Source of the DNA: a bacterium
GTDB lineage: Bacteria; CSSED10-310; JAJRTK01
Direction of reading: 5' to 3'
Length of the DNA: 7,260 bases
Assembly: GCA_024278345.1 (NCBI GenBank)
Contig: JAJRTK010000440.1
Span: 1-7,260 of the forward strand
The position numbers were made by a program, and so were the translations under genes. The notes under the pieces are model-generated. The model saw only the letters and a list, made by a program, of their open reading frames with translations, did no database searches and was not told the origin of the DNA. Shown in pieces: positions 1,043 through 7,260 of the stretch (positions are counted from its first letter, which is position 1; each line of letters starts with the position of its first letter).

Positions 1043-3820
1043 TCAGAAGGCCTGGGTCAAGCCAAGGAATACCTTGTAGCCTCCGCCCTCCGAGCCAAGA
1101 ATGGGAAAACCGACGTCAATTTTTCCCATGGAGGGCATGATGCCGAACCAACGTCCATGAAGGCGCAACCCGAACCCGACGTCAGCGTACCCTTTTCCGT
1201 CGAAGAGGTTCCGGCTGGCGGAGCTCAAGGCGGCGTCTCCAAACGTGACGACCTGAAGGCGGTTCAGAAAAGCCAGGCGGAAGAAGGAAAAATCGAAGTT
1301 CCTGAGTAGATCGGTTCGGAGCTCCATGGAGACTAATCCGACGTTTTCCGCCAGAACCTCGTCCGCCACGAAACCGCGCAGCGCGTTGGCGCTGCCCAGG
1401 ATGAACCGTTTATTGCTCGGGAACTCGCCAGCCGCCATCCCAACAAAGAGCCTGCCGGAAGCCGTGACCCGGGAGTCGAGGCGCTGGTGCCGCGCCAACT
1501 CAAGGCGGCCTATCAAGAAGCTGGAATCGCCCAGGACCTGCTTTGAGCTTCCCTCGATCAATAGATCGATGAAGGTGTCGTTTTTCTGATCGACTTCGCT
1601 CAGGTAGTTGGTGGTATCGTACTGGATGCCAAACCGGAAGGTCAGGAGGGACTGTGCGGGATCGCCGCTGTCCGAATCCCCGGAGATCCGCTCGAAACCC
1701 GCTCCAGCCCGGAAGGCCAGAGGGAAGCGCAAGGGATCGATGGCTTCGCCGTAGTGCCAGGTAAGATCCGCGGTGACGCCGGTTCGGATGGGGTTCTGCG
1801 TTGCTTCGATGAAAAGAAGCCTGCGATAGTCGTGCTGGCGAAGGAACCCGAATCGCAACAGAGCGTTCAGCTCGCCGCTCTTCGACTCCAAGTTGACGCG
1901 GCTGTTGTAGAGAAGGAATTTTAGACGCGGTGGTTTCAGGTTGTCGGCACGCCAGGGATCATCGAGATCACTTCGTGGGTCGAGAGAGACCCGCTTGGGT
2001 TTGCCGTGGCTTTCGAACGTGATCTTCCCGGTGTCGCCCTCCAACAAGATCGATTTTCTCAAAGACTCCTTGCCCCGCGTTTTCAGCTCCACCTCCAGCA
2101 GGTCGATTCGGGATCCGGTCCGAGCCACCTCCACCGTTGTCCGATAGCGCGGACCCGAAGGGTCGCGAAGCTTTTCCGTCTCCACGCTGGCGATCTTGAA
2201 GCTCAAGGGCCGAGGCGGTCCAAGCCACTGCTGGAAAAACCAGTCAAGAGGCTTCTTTCTCCTTTCCTCCAGGTAACTCCGAAGAGATTCCGGGGCCGGC
2301 GATCTTGTCAGGAACTCCCGGGCATCCTCGATCAATTGGGCTTCGCCCACGAACCGCCCAAGCCGTTCCGCCACCAGAGCCCCGGTCATCCAGGCCATTC
2401 CGTGGCTGAAAATATCTTCCGGCACTTCCCCCTCGACTTCGATCCGCTGCAAGTAAAACTGCCGGCCGGGGAAGTCGGCGCCATTGATGAGCTCGTCAAA
2501 GGCCGGGAGGAGCCGGAGAGGGCCTCGGATCACATCCTTGAGACTCTTGCCCAGGCCATATTTCTCCTGGAAATAGCCCTGGCGGATGGAGCGGGCCAGG
2601 AACTGGAACTCCCAAGGCCGCGCCCGCAGACTCGGGTAGTCCCGCATGAGGAGCGCCTCATAGTAGCCGTCCAGCAAAGAGCGCTCGTGGAAGACATCCA
2701 GCATCGGCAAAATCCGGAAGAGCTGGTCGGAGACCAGCAGAAAGCCTACGGCCGGCACGGCCAGCCGTTGATCCAGCGGAGCAAACGCGATTTCCAGCAT
2801 GGGCATCTTATGACGCCCCGTGAACCGCTCGTAGAAGCGCGACGCCTGATCTAGGATTTGTCCGAGTTTTGAAAGCTGTTTCTTCCTTTTTCGGTAGACC
2901 AAGACCCTGTGGTGGAGCTCGCCAACCTCAAGCTCCTGGAAACGGCGGGAGACCGAGAATGAAAACCCCGCAACCGGCGCGGAAGATCTCGTTTTGTCTG
3001 CCGAGTCGGGTATCGGCGTAAGGCGGGACAACTCGAGGCTTTCCGGCGCCTCGCGTTGCTCGGCGGTCGTCCGGGGATTCTCTCCCCGGTCCCCTGGCGG
3101 GGCTTCGACCTGCACCCACCGGGGATCGTGCTCCCTGGACCCAGATGGTGGAGCGCTGCGTGCTTTTTCCTCTCTTCCTTCTTTCTCCCGCCTTACGCGG
3201 GATCCCGCCGAGTCGATCCAGAAGGTCCCCTTGGGATAGCGGATGTTGACTTGGTATTCCGCCGGGCTGGCGGGGCCATGGCGTCCGGAGAGAACCAGCG
3301 GATACCAGCCGCCCTGAACCGTCAAGACCCTGTCGAGCCGCCCGAAGGGACCGCGCTTTTTCGGGAATCGCGTTCGGAACGACACCTGGATCGTCAAACT
3401 TTTGCCCGGCTCGAGCGGTTGGGAAAGACCCATCCTCAAGATTTCCCCGGAAACCGGCGTCACTTGGCCCGCGCCGCCCCTGAGACTCAAATCCATCCAG
3501 CCCGGTTCCACGCCGCGGACGTATCGCAGGTCGATCTCGCTCCAGCTCATTTTCTTGTCCGGCATCCCATAATAATCGGGAAGCGTCCGAAGATAGATCT
3601 CATTGATGGAGTTCTCCGTGAGGTTGGTCACCTCGATGGTCCCGCTCCCTTCGAGCTGTGCCAGGTCATGGGAAACCACGGCTCCCAGCCGATAGACGAC
3701 GCCTAACCCTTCGCCTTTGGCCATTGAAGGCCCAGGGAGGGACAAGAAAAGAAGGGCGTAACCCATGATGACAGCTCGGAGCAATCCGCTCTCACGCTTC
3801 GCACGTTGCGCTCGGAACAC
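1043..3820 (-). CDS. Secreted outer-membrane protein: degenerate M1-peptidase-like region fused to an Omp85/BamA-like C-terminal barrel
   Basis: Start: AAAGGA at about 3832-3837 sits well for TTG 3823 or GTG 3820; GTG is used here (925 aa), TTG 3829 is too close to it. Residues 1-34 look like a signal peptide (basic n-region, hydrophobic 16-30, probable cleavage after SMA). Residues ~42-200 match the beta-rich N-terminal domain of M1 aminopeptidases, including a WYP motif (172-174). Residues ~202-287 are a charged, low-complexity insertion. Residues ~305-535 resemble the M1 catalytic and helical part and end with FFQQWL (528-533), typical of the family. The zinc site appears broken: HERSL (378-382) stands where HEXXH is expected, and no Glu fits the downstream ligand position. 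A beta domain follows (~540-625). Then comes an amphipathic barrel (~635-925) with LRGF (814-817), like the Omp85 loop-6 VRGF motif, and a terminal Phe. The barrel looks short for 16 strands. Likely role is surface or translocation related, not proteolysis; function inferred only. Confidence 0.85.
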   Translation of the reverse strand: MFRAQRAKRESGLLRAVIMGYALLFLSLPGPSMAKGEGLGVVYRLGAVVSHDLAQLEGSGTIEVTNLTENSINEIYLRTLPDYYGMPDKKMSWSEIDLRYVRGVEPGWMDLSLRGGAGQVTPVSGEILRMGLSQPLEPGKSLTIQVSFRTRFPKKRGPFGRLDRVLTVQGGWYPLVLSGRHGPASPAEYQVNIRYPKGTFWIDSAGSRVRREKEGREEKARSAPPSGSREHDPRWVQVEAPPGDRGENPRTTAEQREAPESLELSRLTPIPDSADKTRSSAPVAGFSFSVSRRFQELEVGELHHRVLVYRKRKKQLSKLGQILDQASRFYERFTGRHKMPMLEIAFAPLDQRLAVPAVGFLLVSDQLFRILPMLDVFHERSLLDGYYEALLMRDYPSLRARPWEFQFLARSIRQGYFQEKYGLGKSLKDVIRGPLRLLPAFDELINGADFPGRQFYLQRIEVEGEVPEDIFSHGMAWMTGALVAERLGRFVGEAQLIEDAREFLTRSPAPESLRSYLEERRKKPLDWFFQQWLGPPRPLSFKIASVETEKLRDPSGPRYRTTVEVARTGSRIDLLEVELKTRGKESLRKSILLEGDTGKITFESHGKPKRVSLDPRSDLDDPWRADNLKPPRLKFLLYNSRVNLESKSGELNALLRFGFLRQHDYRRLLFIEATQNPIRTGVTADLTWHYGEAIDPLRFPLAFRAGAGFERISGDSDSGDPAQSLLTFRFGIQYDTTNYLSEVDQKNDTFIDLLIEGSSKQVLGDSSFLIGRLELARHQRLDSRVTASGRLFVGMAAGEFPSNKRFILGSANALRGFVADEVLAENVGLVSMELRTDLLRNFDFSFFRLAFLNRLQVVTFGDAALSSASRNLFDGKGYADVGFGLRLHGRWFGIMPSMGKIDVGFPILGSEGGGYKVFLGLTQAF
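2960..3217 (-). other. Charged low-complexity insertion within the M1-like region of the fusion protein
   Basis: About 86 codons between the N-terminal beta domain and the helical part of the M1-like region encode a segment rich in Arg, Glu, Pro, Ser and Gly, with no hydrophobic core pattern. The flanks resume recognisable M1-like sequence on both sides (IRYPKGTFWID before; GFSFSVSRRFQELEVGE after). It reads as a disordered linker or surface loop in the protein. The reading frame stays open, so it is not a frameshift artefact on the evidence available. Confidence 0.5.
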
Positions 3821-3941
3821 CAAATCCAATTCCTTTCACATCTTGGCCCGTCTCAGATGCCCCTTCGCGGAGCCGATCCCGTGGCCCTGCGGGTGGGCTG
3901 AACCGGGGGGACCCCCTTGGCCCGTGTCCGAAGATCCGGAA
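3821..3941 (-). other. Intergenic leader between the TIGR04283 glycosyltransferase and the outer-membrane gene
   Basis: The 121-base gap holds the ribosome-binding sequence of the downstream gene (leftward strand AAAGGA, about 3832-3837). It also has a GC-rich imperfect inverted repeat (3895-3923: GGGC/GCCC outer arm, GGGG/CCCC inner arm) and a 10-base direct repeat CTTGGCCCGT at 3842-3851 and 3916-3925. No T-run follows the hairpin, so the two genes may be cotranscribed. Alternatively, the gap may carry its own promoter, but no convincing -35/-10 pair was recognised. Confidence 0.35.
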
Positions 3942-4640
3942 TCATCGGACCGGAGGTCCATAGAGCTTCGCCAGGCGCTCAGGGGAAACCCCCAACCCGT
4001 AGGCGAGGCCGATTCCCCAACTTCTCAAGGTTACTTTCAAAACGCCTTCCACCCTCCATCGCCGCGCCGACGATACCAGACGATGCCTCAGCATCACCAG
4101 CTTACCCCTCTTTTTCAAGCGCTGGGCGAATTCAAGGTCTTCCAGTAGGGGTATTGGCTTGTAACCGCCCAGATCCTCGAAAGCCTCTCGCCGAACGAAG
4201 ATGCCCTGGTCACCGTAAGGCAGGCCAAGCAAGCGTGCGCGCCCATTGGAGAGAAAGGCGATGAGCCGGAAGAGCCAGGCGGTGTCGTCGAGCTCCATGG
4301 AAAAAGCCCCCCCGTGGACATTCGACTGATTCAAAGCAGCCATCATGGCCTCCACGAAACCGGGGTCCACCAAGGAATCGGCGTGGAGAAAAAGGAGCAC
4401 GCTCCCGGTGGCCAGCCGGGCGCCGGCATTCATCTGAACCGCCCGCCCTTGGGGGCAGACCACCGTGATGGCGCCCTGGTGCGCCGCCTTTTTGACGGTC
4501 TGGTCCCGGCTTCCACCATCGGCCACGATGACTTCGGCCGCGCCGTAGTCTAGACACCGGCCCACGGTCCTGCCGATGAGCGCCTCTTCGTTCAGGGTGG
4601 GAATCACGACACTGACGGGGAAAGCCTCCTTGTCACACAC
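3942..4640 (-). CDS. Family 2 glycosyltransferase, TIGR04283 type
   Basis: A soluble GT-A-fold transferase of about 232 residues, close to the usual size of the family. Numbering from GTG 4640: IPTLNEE (13-19) is the nucleotide-binding first strand, VADGGS is at 39-44, GRAVQMNAGA at 65-74 and the DXD-equivalent LHAD near 85-88. The family signatures LPYGDQG (140-146), LEDLEF (166-171) and SSARRW (190-195) follow. TIGR04283 members were first noted beside radical-SAM/selenodomain genes and are now often labelled arsenosugar biosynthesis transferases; none of those partners is in this window, so the substrate is left open. The GTG overlaps the end of the upstream glycosyltransferase gene by 8 bases, suggesting translational coupling. 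A TTG at 4706 would add 22 Pro/Gly-rich residues not typical of the family and has no ribosome-binding site. An AAGGAGG at 4625-4631 lies just inside the gene without a start at usable distance. Confidence 0.92.
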   Translation of the reverse strand: MCDKEAFPVSVVIPTLNEEALIGRTVGRCLDYGAAEVIVADGGSRDQTVKKAAHQGAITVVCPQGRAVQMNAGARLATGSVLLFLHADSLVDPGFVEAMMAALNQSNVHGGAFSMELDDTAWLFRLIAFLSNGRARLLGLPYGDQGIFVRREAFEDLGGYKPIPLLEDLEFAQRLKKRGKLVMLRHRLVSSARRWRVEGVLKVTLRSWGIGLAYGLGVSPERLAKLYGPPVR

Positions 4641-5406
4641 GGTTTCTCTGTCCGGCTTGCCCTTCGGCGCTGTTGGCGGGCTTCCTGCTCCGGGCGCTCC
4701 CACCAAGAAAACGGAGCTTGAACAAGGTCCAAAGAATCTTGTATCCGGCGCCGATAGTTCCCCGGAGAGTTCCCGTGATCTTCGACACCCCCACCCGCTT
4801 CTTGTAGCTCACGGGAACCTCCAAGATCCTCAGCTTCGCCTCAATGGCCTTCACCTGCATCTCCATGTTCCAGCCATAATTCCGGTCGACCATACCCAGC
4901 CGTTCCAGGGCTTCGCTGCGAATCGCCCGAAACGGCCCCATATCGGTGAACCGGTGGCTGTAAAGCAGGCGAATCAAAAAGGTGGCCAAGGCATTGCCCC
5001 ACCGGGCCTGGGGAAGGAGCGCTCCCGGTTCCGCGCCGCCCAACGTCCTGGAGCCCAGCACGAAGTCCGCCTGCCCCTTTTGGATCGGCTCCAGAAGGCG
5101 CGGCAATTCGACCGGAGAATCGCTATAATCGGCATCCAGAAAGACCACGATCTCCGGCATCCGCCCCTTGAGCGCCCGGATCCCGGCAAGGCAGGCCGAC
5201 CCATATCCCCGGCGCCGCTCTTCCACCAGGGTGACGCCCGCTTCGCGAGCCACCCCGGCTGTCCCATCCTCGCTCCCATTGTCCACCACGATCACTTCTT
5301 GCACATCTTCCTGGGGAAGCTCCTGAAGGACAAGTGGCAGGCTCTTTTCCTCGTTGAGGGCGGGAATGATCACGGCGGCCTTGGCCTTTGTGCTGGGCCC
5401 GTTCAT
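4633..5406 (-). CDS. Family 2 glycosyltransferase, DPM/DPG-synthase-like (polyprenyl-phosphate sugar synthase type)
   Basis: 257 residues, one GT-A domain, no transmembrane segments. The ATG is supported by GAAGGA seven to eight bases upstream. Visible motifs: VIIPALNEE (12-20), VVDNGSEDGT (40-49), RRGYGSACLAGI (65-76), the metal-binding FLDADYSD (89-96), the VLGSR strand (116-120), TDMGPFRAIR (154-163) and YGWNMEMQ (177-184). These match bacterial relatives of dolichyl-phosphate mannose/glucose synthases, which move a sugar from a nucleotide donor to a polyprenyl phosphate at the inner face of the cytoplasmic membrane. Donor and acceptor cannot be read from sequence. The absence of a C-terminal membrane anchor resembles the short DPM types. 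It is followed with overlap by a second glycosyltransferase and lies 155 bases downstream of the sigma factor gene. Another envelope-glycan transferase role is possible. Confidence 0.92.
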   Translation of the reverse strand: MNGPSTKAKAAVIIPALNEEKSLPLVLQELPQEDVQEVIVVDNGSEDGTAGVAREAGVTLVEERRRGYGSACLAGIRALKGRMPEIVVFLDADYSDSPVELPRLLEPIQKGQADFVLGSRTLGGAEPGALLPQARWGNALATFLIRLLYSHRFTDMGPFRAIRSEALERLGMVDRNYGWNMEMQVKAIEAKLRILEVPVSYKKRVGVSKITGTLRGTIGAGYKILWTLFKLRFLGGSARSRKPANSAEGQAGQRNRV

Positions 5407-5447
5407 GGGAGTTTCCTTCTCATTGAACCAGTCTCCGGGGACAGAGC

Positions 5448-5472
5448 TTCAGCCCCCGGGAAAGGGGGCGAA
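5448..5472 (-). repeat. GC-rich hairpin
   Basis: Perfect 6-bp stem GCCCCC/GGGGGC (5452-5457 with 5464-5469) around the loop GGGAAA, extended by TTC/GAA across a one-base bulge. No T-run on either side, so it is not a standard terminator. It lies about 40 bases before the glycosyltransferase start, in the presumed 5' leader, where it could affect mRNA stability or translation. Confidence 0.5.
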
Positions 5473-5475
5473 CAG

Positions 5476-5495
5476 CGGCGGACGGACTGCCGCCG
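5476..5495 (-). repeat. Second GC-rich hairpin in tandem
   Basis: Perfect 6-bp stem CGGCGG/CCGCCG (5476-5481 with 5490-5495) with an 8-base loop, separated from the neighbouring hairpin by three bases. The strand is that of the presumed leftward transcript. No T-run follows it. Confidence 0.45.
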
Positions 5496-5515
5496 ATGGG
5501 AGCGGAACTCAACCC

Positions 5516-5554
5516 AAAAAACAACGGTCGTGCTTCGTGATTCCTGGGCAACCG
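5516..5554 (-). terminator. Possible weak intrinsic terminator after the sigma factor gene
   Basis: On the leftward strand, CGGTTG (5554-5549) can pair with CGACCG (5530-5525), a 6-bp stem with one G-U pair and an 18-base loop. It is followed directly by TTGTTTTTT (5524-5516). It begins seven bases after the sigma factor stop. The long loop and short stem make it weak; partial read-through into the glycosyltransferase genes is likely. Confidence 0.3.
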
Positions 5555-5561
5555 GCCTTCC

Positions 5562-6122
5562 CTACTTCACGACTCCGGCGCGTTTCGCCTGGTCAAGAAG
5601 CATCTTCTGAAGGAGCTTGCGACCCCGGTAAATCCTGGACATCACCGTTCCCATGGGGACATCGAGGATTTCGCAAATCTCCTTGTAGTGAAACTGCTCA
5701 ACACAGGCAAGTTGGATGACTTCCCGGAAAGGCTCCGGGAGCTTTTCGATGGCACCGGTGATTTGTTCCACGGCCGCGAACTCGAAATATTCTTCCTCCG
5801 GCGTCTTGCTTCCCGGGCTGTGCCGGGCGCGGATGAGCTCCAGGAAGGGCTCGACGTTGTCGTAATCCACCTGTTGCGGGGTCCGCCGCGTTTTCCGGAG
5901 ATGATTCCGGAAGCTGTTCATCAAGATGGTGAAGAGCCATGCCTTGAGATTGGTCCCCGGCTGGAAGCGGTGGAACAAACGGAAGGCCTTGAGATAGGTA
6001 TCCTGGACGAGATCGTCCGCCTGATCGGAGCGGCGTGTCAGCCGGAGCGCCGTGCTATAGAGCGCGTCAAGGTGCTGATACGTCTCGTCGAAATCCGTTC
6101 CACCAGAACCGGAAGATGCCAT
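5562..6122 (-). CDS. ECF-type RNA polymerase sigma factor (sigma-70 family, group 4)
   Basis: 186 residues from ATG 6122. Region 2 spans about 20-80: TALRLTRRSDQADDLVQDTY (core-polymerase helix), then FRLFHRFQPGTNLKAWLFT and MNSFRNHLRKTRR for -10 recognition. Region 4 spans about 125-175: IEKLPEPFREVIQLA, then the helix-turn-helix HYKEICEILDVPMGTVMSR and the basic RGRKLLQKM. The layout resembles SigR/SigH-like ECF factors that work with zinc-binding anti-sigma proteins, but the next gene on this strand is a glycosyltransferase and no anti-sigma is visible. Two GTG codons (6140, 6137) could add up to six residues, with no better ribosome-binding site; ATG is preferred because GGTGGGA lies upstream of it, though spacing is long. 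The promoter must lie inside the divergent membrane-protein gene. Regulon unknown. Confidence 0.95.
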   Translation of the reverse strand: MASSGSGGTDFDETYQHLDALYSTALRLTRRSDQADDLVQDTYLKAFRLFHRFQPGTNLKAWLFTILMNSFRNHLRKTRRTPQQVDYDNVEPFLELIRARHSPGSKTPEEEYFEFAAVEQITGAIEKLPEPFREVIQLACVEQFHYKEICEILDVPMGTVMSRIYRGRKLLQKMLLDQAKRAGVVK

Positions 6123-7260
6123 GTCGCTGCGTCCCACCACCGCCCGAGCCGCTCCGCGAGGACTCTGGCTGCTGCTCTTTATTGGGTTCGTGTCTCTTGC
6201 CGTCTATGGCCGCTTAGCCTTCAATTCCCATCTGGGAAGGATTGTTCCGCTCTACGTGGGAATGCACCTCTTTCTGGCGGCTCTTATGTTCATCGCCTGG
6301 GCGGGCTTGGAACGTTGGCCCCCCGCCAGCCACCGGCACACAGTCTGGATGATCGTCCTTTTCGGCGTTTTGCTGCGCCTTCCTCTTCTTCCGTCGGAGC
6401 CCTCCCTCTCCGATGACATCTACCGCTATGTTTGGGATGCCCGGGTCACGGCCGCGGGAGTGAGCCCATATCGGTTTCCTCCAGAGGCCCCGGAGTTGGC
6501 CCCGCTGCGGGACGATCTCTACCAAAAGATCAACCACCGGCCCATCCCCACCATCTATCCGCCGGCGAGCCAGGCTTTTTTTACCATCGGCGGGTGGTTC
6601 TTGCCAGGCGTCGGCGGTCTCAAATTTGGCTTGTTGCTCCTGGACATCGCCGTGATGTTGCTTCTTGGGCGGCTTTTGCTTCTTTTGGGACGTTCGCCCG
6701 GAGCCCTTGTCCTCTATGCTTGGAACCCCCTAGTCATCGTGGAAATCAGTAGTAGCGGCCACTCAGAATCCCTCGTGTCGCTCTTTTTCCTGCTATCTTA
6801 CTGGAGCCTGCTCCAAAACAAAAGGAGTCTTGCGGGAGCCGCCATGGGGACAGCCATCATGGCAAAGCTCTACCCGGTGGCTTTGATGCCTTTATGGCTC
6901 CCGCGGTTAGGCGTCCGGGGCGTCGCGTGGACGCTGGGCATCGCCACCCTGCTGGCGCTTCCCTTTCTGAGCCGGGACCTGGTGATCCTCAATGGTTTGT
7001 TGACCTTCGCGGAACATTGGAACCACAACGAGTTCCTCTATCGTTTTATCTTATTCGCCACCCCAACCCGAGAGATCGCCAAGCTGGTTTGTGCCCTGAT
7101 CTTCCTGGGCATCGTCGCTATTTTCGCCTTTCGCGACAAAACCAGCACCCCTGGCGATCTCGCATGCCGGAACCTTTGGTGCCTGACTCTGCTCTTGGCC
7201 CTTTCGCCCACGATCCACCCTTGGTACGTGACCTGGCTGGCGCCCTGGGTCGTCTTGGCT
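6121..7260 (+). CDS. GT-C fold polyprenyl-phosphate-sugar-dependent glycosyltransferase (GT87/DUF2029-like), truncated by the window's right edge
   Basis: 380 codons are visible and open to the last base, so the C-terminus is missing. A TGA at 6076-6078 bounds the frame and ATG 6121 is the only start before the first membrane helix (about 15-32). The protein is strongly hydrophobic with roughly eight or more membrane helices. Motifs: an acidic pair in the first external loop, SDDIYRYVWDAR (97-108); SPYRFPPEAPEL after it; TIYPPASQ (144-151); WNPLVIVEISSSGHSES (181-197); MAKLYPVAL (247-255); EHWNHNEFLY (338-347); and HPWYVTWLAPW (366-376). These fit GT-C mannosyl/hexosyltransferases that take sugar from a polyprenyl-phosphate donor on the outer face of the inner membrane; the Asp pair is the likely catalytic site. 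It diverges from the sigma gene. A DPM-like donor synthase close by is consistent with this role. Sugar and acceptor unknown; an alpha-1,6-type mannosyltransferase-like relative is an alternative. Confidence 0.85.
   Translation, partial: MSLRPTTARAAPRGLWLLLFIGFVSLAVYGRLAFNSHLGRIVPLYVGMHLFLAALMFIAWAGLERWPPASHRHTVWMIVLFGVLLRLPLLPSEPSLSDDIYRYVWDARVTAAGVSPYRFPPEAPELAPLRDDLYQKINHRPIPTIYPPASQAFFTIGGWFLPGVGGLKFGLLLLDIAVMLLLGRLLLLLGRSPGALVLYAWNPLVIVEISSSGHSESLVSLFFLLSYWSLLQNKRSLAGAAMGTAIMAKLYPVALMPLWLPRLGVRGVAWTLGIATLLALPFLSRDLVILNGLLTFAEHWNHNEFLYRFILFATPTREIAKLVCALIFLGIVAIFAFRDKTSTPGDLACRNLWCLTLLLALSPTIHPWYVTWLAPWVVLA

Follow-up and report, generated by a model that had tools for sequence, protein, structure and literature searches.

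An Omp85-type barrel directly preceded by an M1 peptidase-like domain that has lost its zinc site

Bacteria, mitochondria and chloroplasts rely on Omp85 proteins to build their outer membranes; members of this superfamily usually, though not always, carry at least one POTRA domain of ~75 amino acids. The window analysed here, a 7,260-nucleotide stretch of bacterial DNA, holds one reading frame in which a signal peptide, an apparently inactive M1-type metallopeptidase and an Omp85-like barrel follow one another. Is this fusion real, is the loss of its zinc site the decay of one copy or a trait shared by a lineage, and what might a peptidase fold that no longer looks like an enzyme do for an outer-membrane barrel?

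Results

One minus-strand gene encodes the fusion

The first-pass annotation had proposed a single open frame at 1043–3820. The frame holds, at 928 codons, with the correction that it is coded on the minus strand and runs over 1043–3829 from a TTG start (Table 1); position 3820, taken earlier as its end, is an alternative GTG start. AAAGGA precedes both the TTG and the GTG, and the signal peptide claimed before is evident by eye from the latter. A chance open frame is ruled out: the longest among 500 shuffles of the window reached 381 codons, and codon-position GC is gene-like in both halves (0.63/0.45/0.74 in the M1 part, 0.59/0.42/0.75 in the barrel), with similar values in neighbouring genes.

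Table 1 Features of the fusion gene and its insertion, in window coordinates
Feature	Position	Strand	Basis
Pseudo-M1/Omp85 fusion gene, 928 codons	1043–3829	minus	Open frame, shuffles, codon-position GC
Probable Sec signal peptide, residues 4–37, ending ...LLFLSLPGPSMA before KG	3719–3820	minus	Read by eye from sequence
M1-aminopeptidase-like region, residues 40–633, interrupted by the MITE-like element	1931–3712	minus	HHalign, structure comparison, PDB profile matches
Target-site duplication, first copy (GACTCGGC)	3207–3214	minus	
MITE-like element, 199 bp, in frame, with ~24-nt imperfect terminal inverted repeats	3008–3206	minus	Own-genome matches, aligned copies, geometry
Target-site duplication, second copy (GACTCGGC)	3000–3007	minus	
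Lost HEXXH, here RSLLD, residues R383–D387	2669–2683	minus	Profile alignment and column table
Lost Glu zinc ligand, here Gln409	2603–2605	minus	Column table
Lost catalytic Tyr, here Trp480	2390–2392	minus	Column table
FFQQWL landmark, residues 531–536, common to M1 relatives	2222–2239	minus	Alignments
Omp85-type barrel, residues 634–928	1046–1930	minus	Pfam Omp85 at 648–853; family profile matches TamA and BamA
LRGF motif, residues 817–820	1370–1381	minus	RG conserved in family

An M1 fold runs up to an Omp85-type barrel

In this protein Pfam sees Omp85 alone and leaves the first 640 residues unmatched, so proof of the M1 part had to come from relatives. A profile of 28 family members without the HEXXH motif aligns with that of 43 HEXXH-bearing M1 relatives at a probability of 100 (HHalign, E 4e-60, residues 40–633). 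The full-length AlphaFold2 model is weak (pLDDT 46.6 overall, with only portions of the M1 region modelled well), and solved M1 aminopeptidases match its M1 part at a best Z of 15.6, with an r.m.s.d. of 8.8 Å over 446 residues (VIA; matches generally at 8–9 Å). The N-terminal, catalytic and third domains of an M1 fold are thus recovered, by HHalign and by structure comparison alike, and the M1-type region claimed from the letters is borne out. TFIID chain 7edx_B, which we take to be TAF2, is among the structural matches. Two SAR324 relatives show both halves to Pfam in the same polypeptide (Peptidase_M1, E 1.7e-14 and 1.5e-13; Omp85, E 1.5e-6 and 5e-7), and Peptidase_M1 is matched in 5 of the 11 members of the family alignment.

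For the barrel, the Pfam match (PF01103, residues 648–853, E 3e-5) scores 24.1 bits in this protein against a cut-off of 24, and the same domain is found in 8/11 family members (best E 1.9e-15). Searched against PDB sequences, the 11-member profile finds TamA (E 2e-11), BamA and M1 aminopeptidases (aminopeptidase N, best E 8e-7), and nothing besides these among the best 60 matches listed. The RG of the (L/V/I)RG(F/Y) barrel-loop motif is kept in all members that reach the region, and this protein retains the conserved linker, the LRGF and the C-terminal Phe, in keeping with the barrel first proposed. A separate model of the barrel, built from 4 sequences, has a pLDDT of 31, too low to count strands (16 expected for Omp85), and the barrel assignment rests on sequence.

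No POTRA domain is matched by Pfam in this protein or in the 11-member family, and there is no room for one, because M1 homology extends as far as residue 633 while the Pfam Omp85 match starts at 648. Nor does Pfam match a patatin domain here, as type Vd proteins would have; the M1 fold stands in that position. On this sequence evidence we regard the chimera as established: a pseudo-M1 domain leads straight into an Omp85-type barrel, and a POTRA would not fit between them.

The zinc site is lost here, and HEXXH is absent from all 28 motif-less members inspected

M1 enzymes carry HEXXH(X18)E and a catalytic Tyr; the corresponding residues here are R383, S384, D387, Q409 and W480. The loss of the zinc ligands was read correctly at the outset, including the missing downstream Glu, whose column holds Gln409. 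The HERSL string then taken for a remnant of HEXXH is a coincidence: the HEXXH columns lie two residues later. H, E and H are absent from 28/28 motif-less members inspected and present in 36/36 comparison relatives, a set that was itself chosen by HEXXH, so that only the 28/28 absence is informative. The Glu-ligand column is still Glu in 4 of the 6 members of this protein's clade.

A dispersed repeat lies in frame within the M1 region

The first-pass annotation missed an insertion within the peptidase-like region. Residues 206–274 lie outside the M1 fold and derive from a dispersed repeat inserted in frame: 207 added bases (69 codons) preserve the frame, relatives do not have the segment, and the remaining gene has a different GC by codon position. 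As expected of a MITE, the element is short (199 bp) and multi-copy, with 40 strong matches in its own genome (copies at L040–L069), terminal inverted repeats that read GGGTATCCACG(T/C)AAGGCGGGACA... and a target-site duplication, an 8-bp duplication being visible by eye also at copies L042, L057 and L065.

Other copies lie within long open frames (L065:427–3150, L057:1–2166 and L064:945–3095). In a comparison with Rickettsia palindromic element-like insertions, which recur in frame in many conserved genes, nine further open frames that run across the element gave no Pfam domain extending over it.

Motif-less fusions are conserved in other lineages

We searched 386 genomes and then whole phyla. 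One small phylum has the motif-less fusion once per genome in all five of its genomes, which represent five families. In the SAR324 phylum, 34 of 52 genomes hold a matching fusion, and some of these have additional copies. No full-length fusion was found in the seven searched genomes of the window's own phylum, and the window's copy may derive from transfer. One SAR324 genome (G389) has at least three paralogues of the motif-less fusion (L102, L108 and L112).

In SAR324, pairwise dN/dS (Nei–Gojobori, pairs restricted to M1 dS < 1.5) is ~0.13–0.28 for the dead M1 part and ~0.06–0.17 for the barrel. The dead M1 domain is under purifying selection there, its dN/dS lying well below 1. Fusion and motif loss, which had been flagged as features whose conservation should be sought in relatives, are both conserved.

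A tree of the M1 part gives this protein a long branch and groups it with the five-genome phylum (support 100/99). The SAR324 members fall into a separate clade, nearer to HEXXH-bearing fusions. This tree calls for two state changes, but the test does not reject a single inactive clade (p-AU 0.13). We collected 16 fusions with invariant H, E, H, E and Tyr from further genomes, including KSB1. Pfam recognizes Omp85 in only 3/16 of these; their barrels are homologous to those of the motif-less fusions (HH probability 98 and 94), so that M1–Omp85 is a wider architecture, some of whose branches look enzymatic while others are non-enzymatic. Judged by their conserved sites, these fusions show that the architecture as such need not be non-enzymatic. 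The loss of the zinc site, with HEXXH missing from all 28 motif-less members inspected, is a lineage trait.

Had close relatives kept an intact HEXXH, this copy was to be considered a decayed enzyme. That outcome applies only in part: relatives with an intact HEXXH do exist, but on other branches, so the protein is not simply one decayed copy. Since two or more further bacterial lineages maintain the same chimera, it looks like a previously unrecognised, non-enzymatic Omp85 branch rather than a broken enzyme.

The fusion is an additional Omp85 without a common neighbourhood

All eight genomes tested hold further Omp85 matches, the strong ones BamA-like by score and length, so the fusion is an extra Omp85. 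In 5/8 genomes tested, TamB is encoded close to an Omp85 gene other than the fusion, and Pfam finds no TamB (PF04357) in three SAR324 genomes carrying the motif-less fusion (G390, G422 and G414). Members of the TamA family have three POTRA domains and a gene beside tamB; the fusion has no POTRA, and there is no TamB in the window. A role as a TamA substitute is unsupported in the five genomes with TamB, since TamB there has a different Omp85 gene in its vicinity.

The genome of the window also encodes a WD40/PD40–Omp85 protein (L170, G000:C536) and a 438-residue short Omp85 (L166, G000:C498), both of known kinds.

Neighbouring genes differ between lineages. Throughout the small phylum (5/5 genomes; L114–L117 and L123), a gene for an SLT+LysM lytic transglycosylase lies divergent to the fusion. 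Across the main SAR324 clade it is followed on the same strand by a gene for a ~340-residue protein at 14/14 loci (L127–L140, for example L127:4505–5578); this protein has a charged N-terminal part, one apparent transmembrane segment and no Pfam family above cut-off. Within the window, a TIGR04283-type GT2 glycosyltransferase, a second, overlapping GT2 and an ECF sigma factor occupy 3942–6140 on the minus strand, and the fusion gene follows on the same strand. The window shares no neighbourhood with its relatives, and no neighbour gene is common to all lineages.

Discussion

The reading we favour, at a probability of roughly 40%, is that the protein is a POTRA-less Omp85 whose dead M1 fold would act as a periplasmic clamp, binding polypeptide or a partner as a POTRA or a tethered chaperone does, in addition to BAM. 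The protein would be exported by Sec and its barrel inserted into the outer membrane by BAM; the M1-like part would remain in the periplasm beneath the barrel, like PlpD's patatin domain, with a clamp-shaped groove that would bind stretches of extended polypeptide, or a partner protein, and present them to the barrel. The fusion would thereby serve a subset of outer-membrane or exported proteins. The first-pass annotation had likewise suggested a peptide-binding chaperone or a new translocation/assembly system as a possible role. The HEXXH-bearing fusions and the lack of a neighbour gene common to all lineages count against this reading. M1 grooves bind polypeptide, and the pseudo-M1 groove may do so on behalf of its barrel, which is less certain than where the domain resides. 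The analogy is with the yeast M1 pseudopeptidase Tma108, which binds nascent chains (PMC11266112). By analogy, a periplasmic position is likely, because the PlpD patatin domain, for years regarded as secreted, proved to remain in the periplasm (PMC11116518).

Other roles for the barrel have to be weighed against a clamp. Type Vd-like display, in which the barrel would carry the M1-like domain to the cell surface, would make surface aminopeptidases of the HEXXH versions and surface binding proteins of the dead ones. The passenger-then-barrel order with its signal peptide suits this, but a folded domain of ~600 residues is a difficult passenger for an Omp85 barrel. Patatin–Omp85 proteins were long interpreted in this way (PMC4104836), yet in PlpD, the type case, the N-terminal domain proved to be periplasmic (PMC11116518), and we hold display to be unlikely. 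PlpD also exemplifies an Omp85 scaffold reused for other functions (PMC11116518). A PlpD-like envelope protein would use its barrel, possibly as a dimer, as a structural or lipid-homeostasis platform, with the pseudo-M1 domain binding a partner such as a cell-wall enzyme and nothing being assembled or translocated. The lytic transglycosylase gene beside the fusion throughout the small phylum agrees with such a role; its absence from that position in SAR324 and in the window does not, and the proposal seems to us somewhat unlikely.

Two further explanations concern the M1 domain itself. The long branch, the transposable insertion, an Omp85 score barely at the Pfam cut-off and the lack of a relative among the seven genomes searched in its own phylum could all mark the window's copy as a decaying version of the fusion protein. 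Against this, 928 codons stand open with gene-like codon-position GC in both halves, the linker, LRGF and C-terminal Phe are conserved, and the motif loss is common to conserved relatives; decay is accordingly rather improbable. That the domain retains some other catalytic activity, at a different site, is very improbable: the Glu-ligand column does remain Glu in most of the clade, but this protein has lost it, and the residues found instead of H1, E2, H5 and the catalytic Tyr differ in kind from member to member.

Comparison with known systems sets the periplasmic-clamp reading in context. TamA and BamA share with the fusion a homologous barrel, an RGF-type motif and the C-terminal Phe; they have POTRA domains where the fusion has an M1 fold, and such proteins are also present in the genomes tested. 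PlpD and other patatin–Omp85 proteins likewise join an enzyme-fold domain to an Omp85 barrel in one polypeptide, but PlpD is a patatin lipase with one POTRA and an intact site (PMC11116518), whereas the fusion has an M1 fold, no POTRA and a lost site. With the M1 aminopeptidases (PepN, ERAP and LTA4H) it has in common the fold and domain order over residues 40–633; unlike them, it has lost the zinc ligands, the catalytic Tyr and the GxMEN motif and has a barrel attached. HEXXH-bearing M1–Omp85 fusions from KSB1 and elsewhere have the same architecture, with the complete H-E-H-E-Y set and on other branches of the tree. The eukaryotic TAF2 and Tma108 also have an M1 fold that lacks, or does not use, peptidase activity, but they are cytosolic or nuclear and have no barrel. 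The fusion fits none of the ten architectures described in the text of the Omp85 classification by Heinz and Lithgow (2014), which names no M1 or aminopeptidase domain among its ten subfamilies and whose Metallo group is PF00149 (PMC4104836). A word-matched text search of the open-access literature found no report of an M1–Omp85 fusion.

We rate the family as an Omp85 with a new N-terminal module, partly non-enzymatic. It is a tentative and doubtful extension that bacteria of several phyla have a further Omp85 assembly or translocation factor, in which a peptidase fold stripped of its zinc site would take over from POTRA domains as the periplasmic arm that binds substrate, periplasmic proteolysis having possibly given way to chaperoning on more than one occasion. 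A dead peptidase that is conserved in a lineage, and stands where POTRA domains usually do, would probe whether non-POTRA modules can serve Omp85 barrels, and the natural active and inactive versions of one fusion offer a means to learn what the peptidase fold does there.
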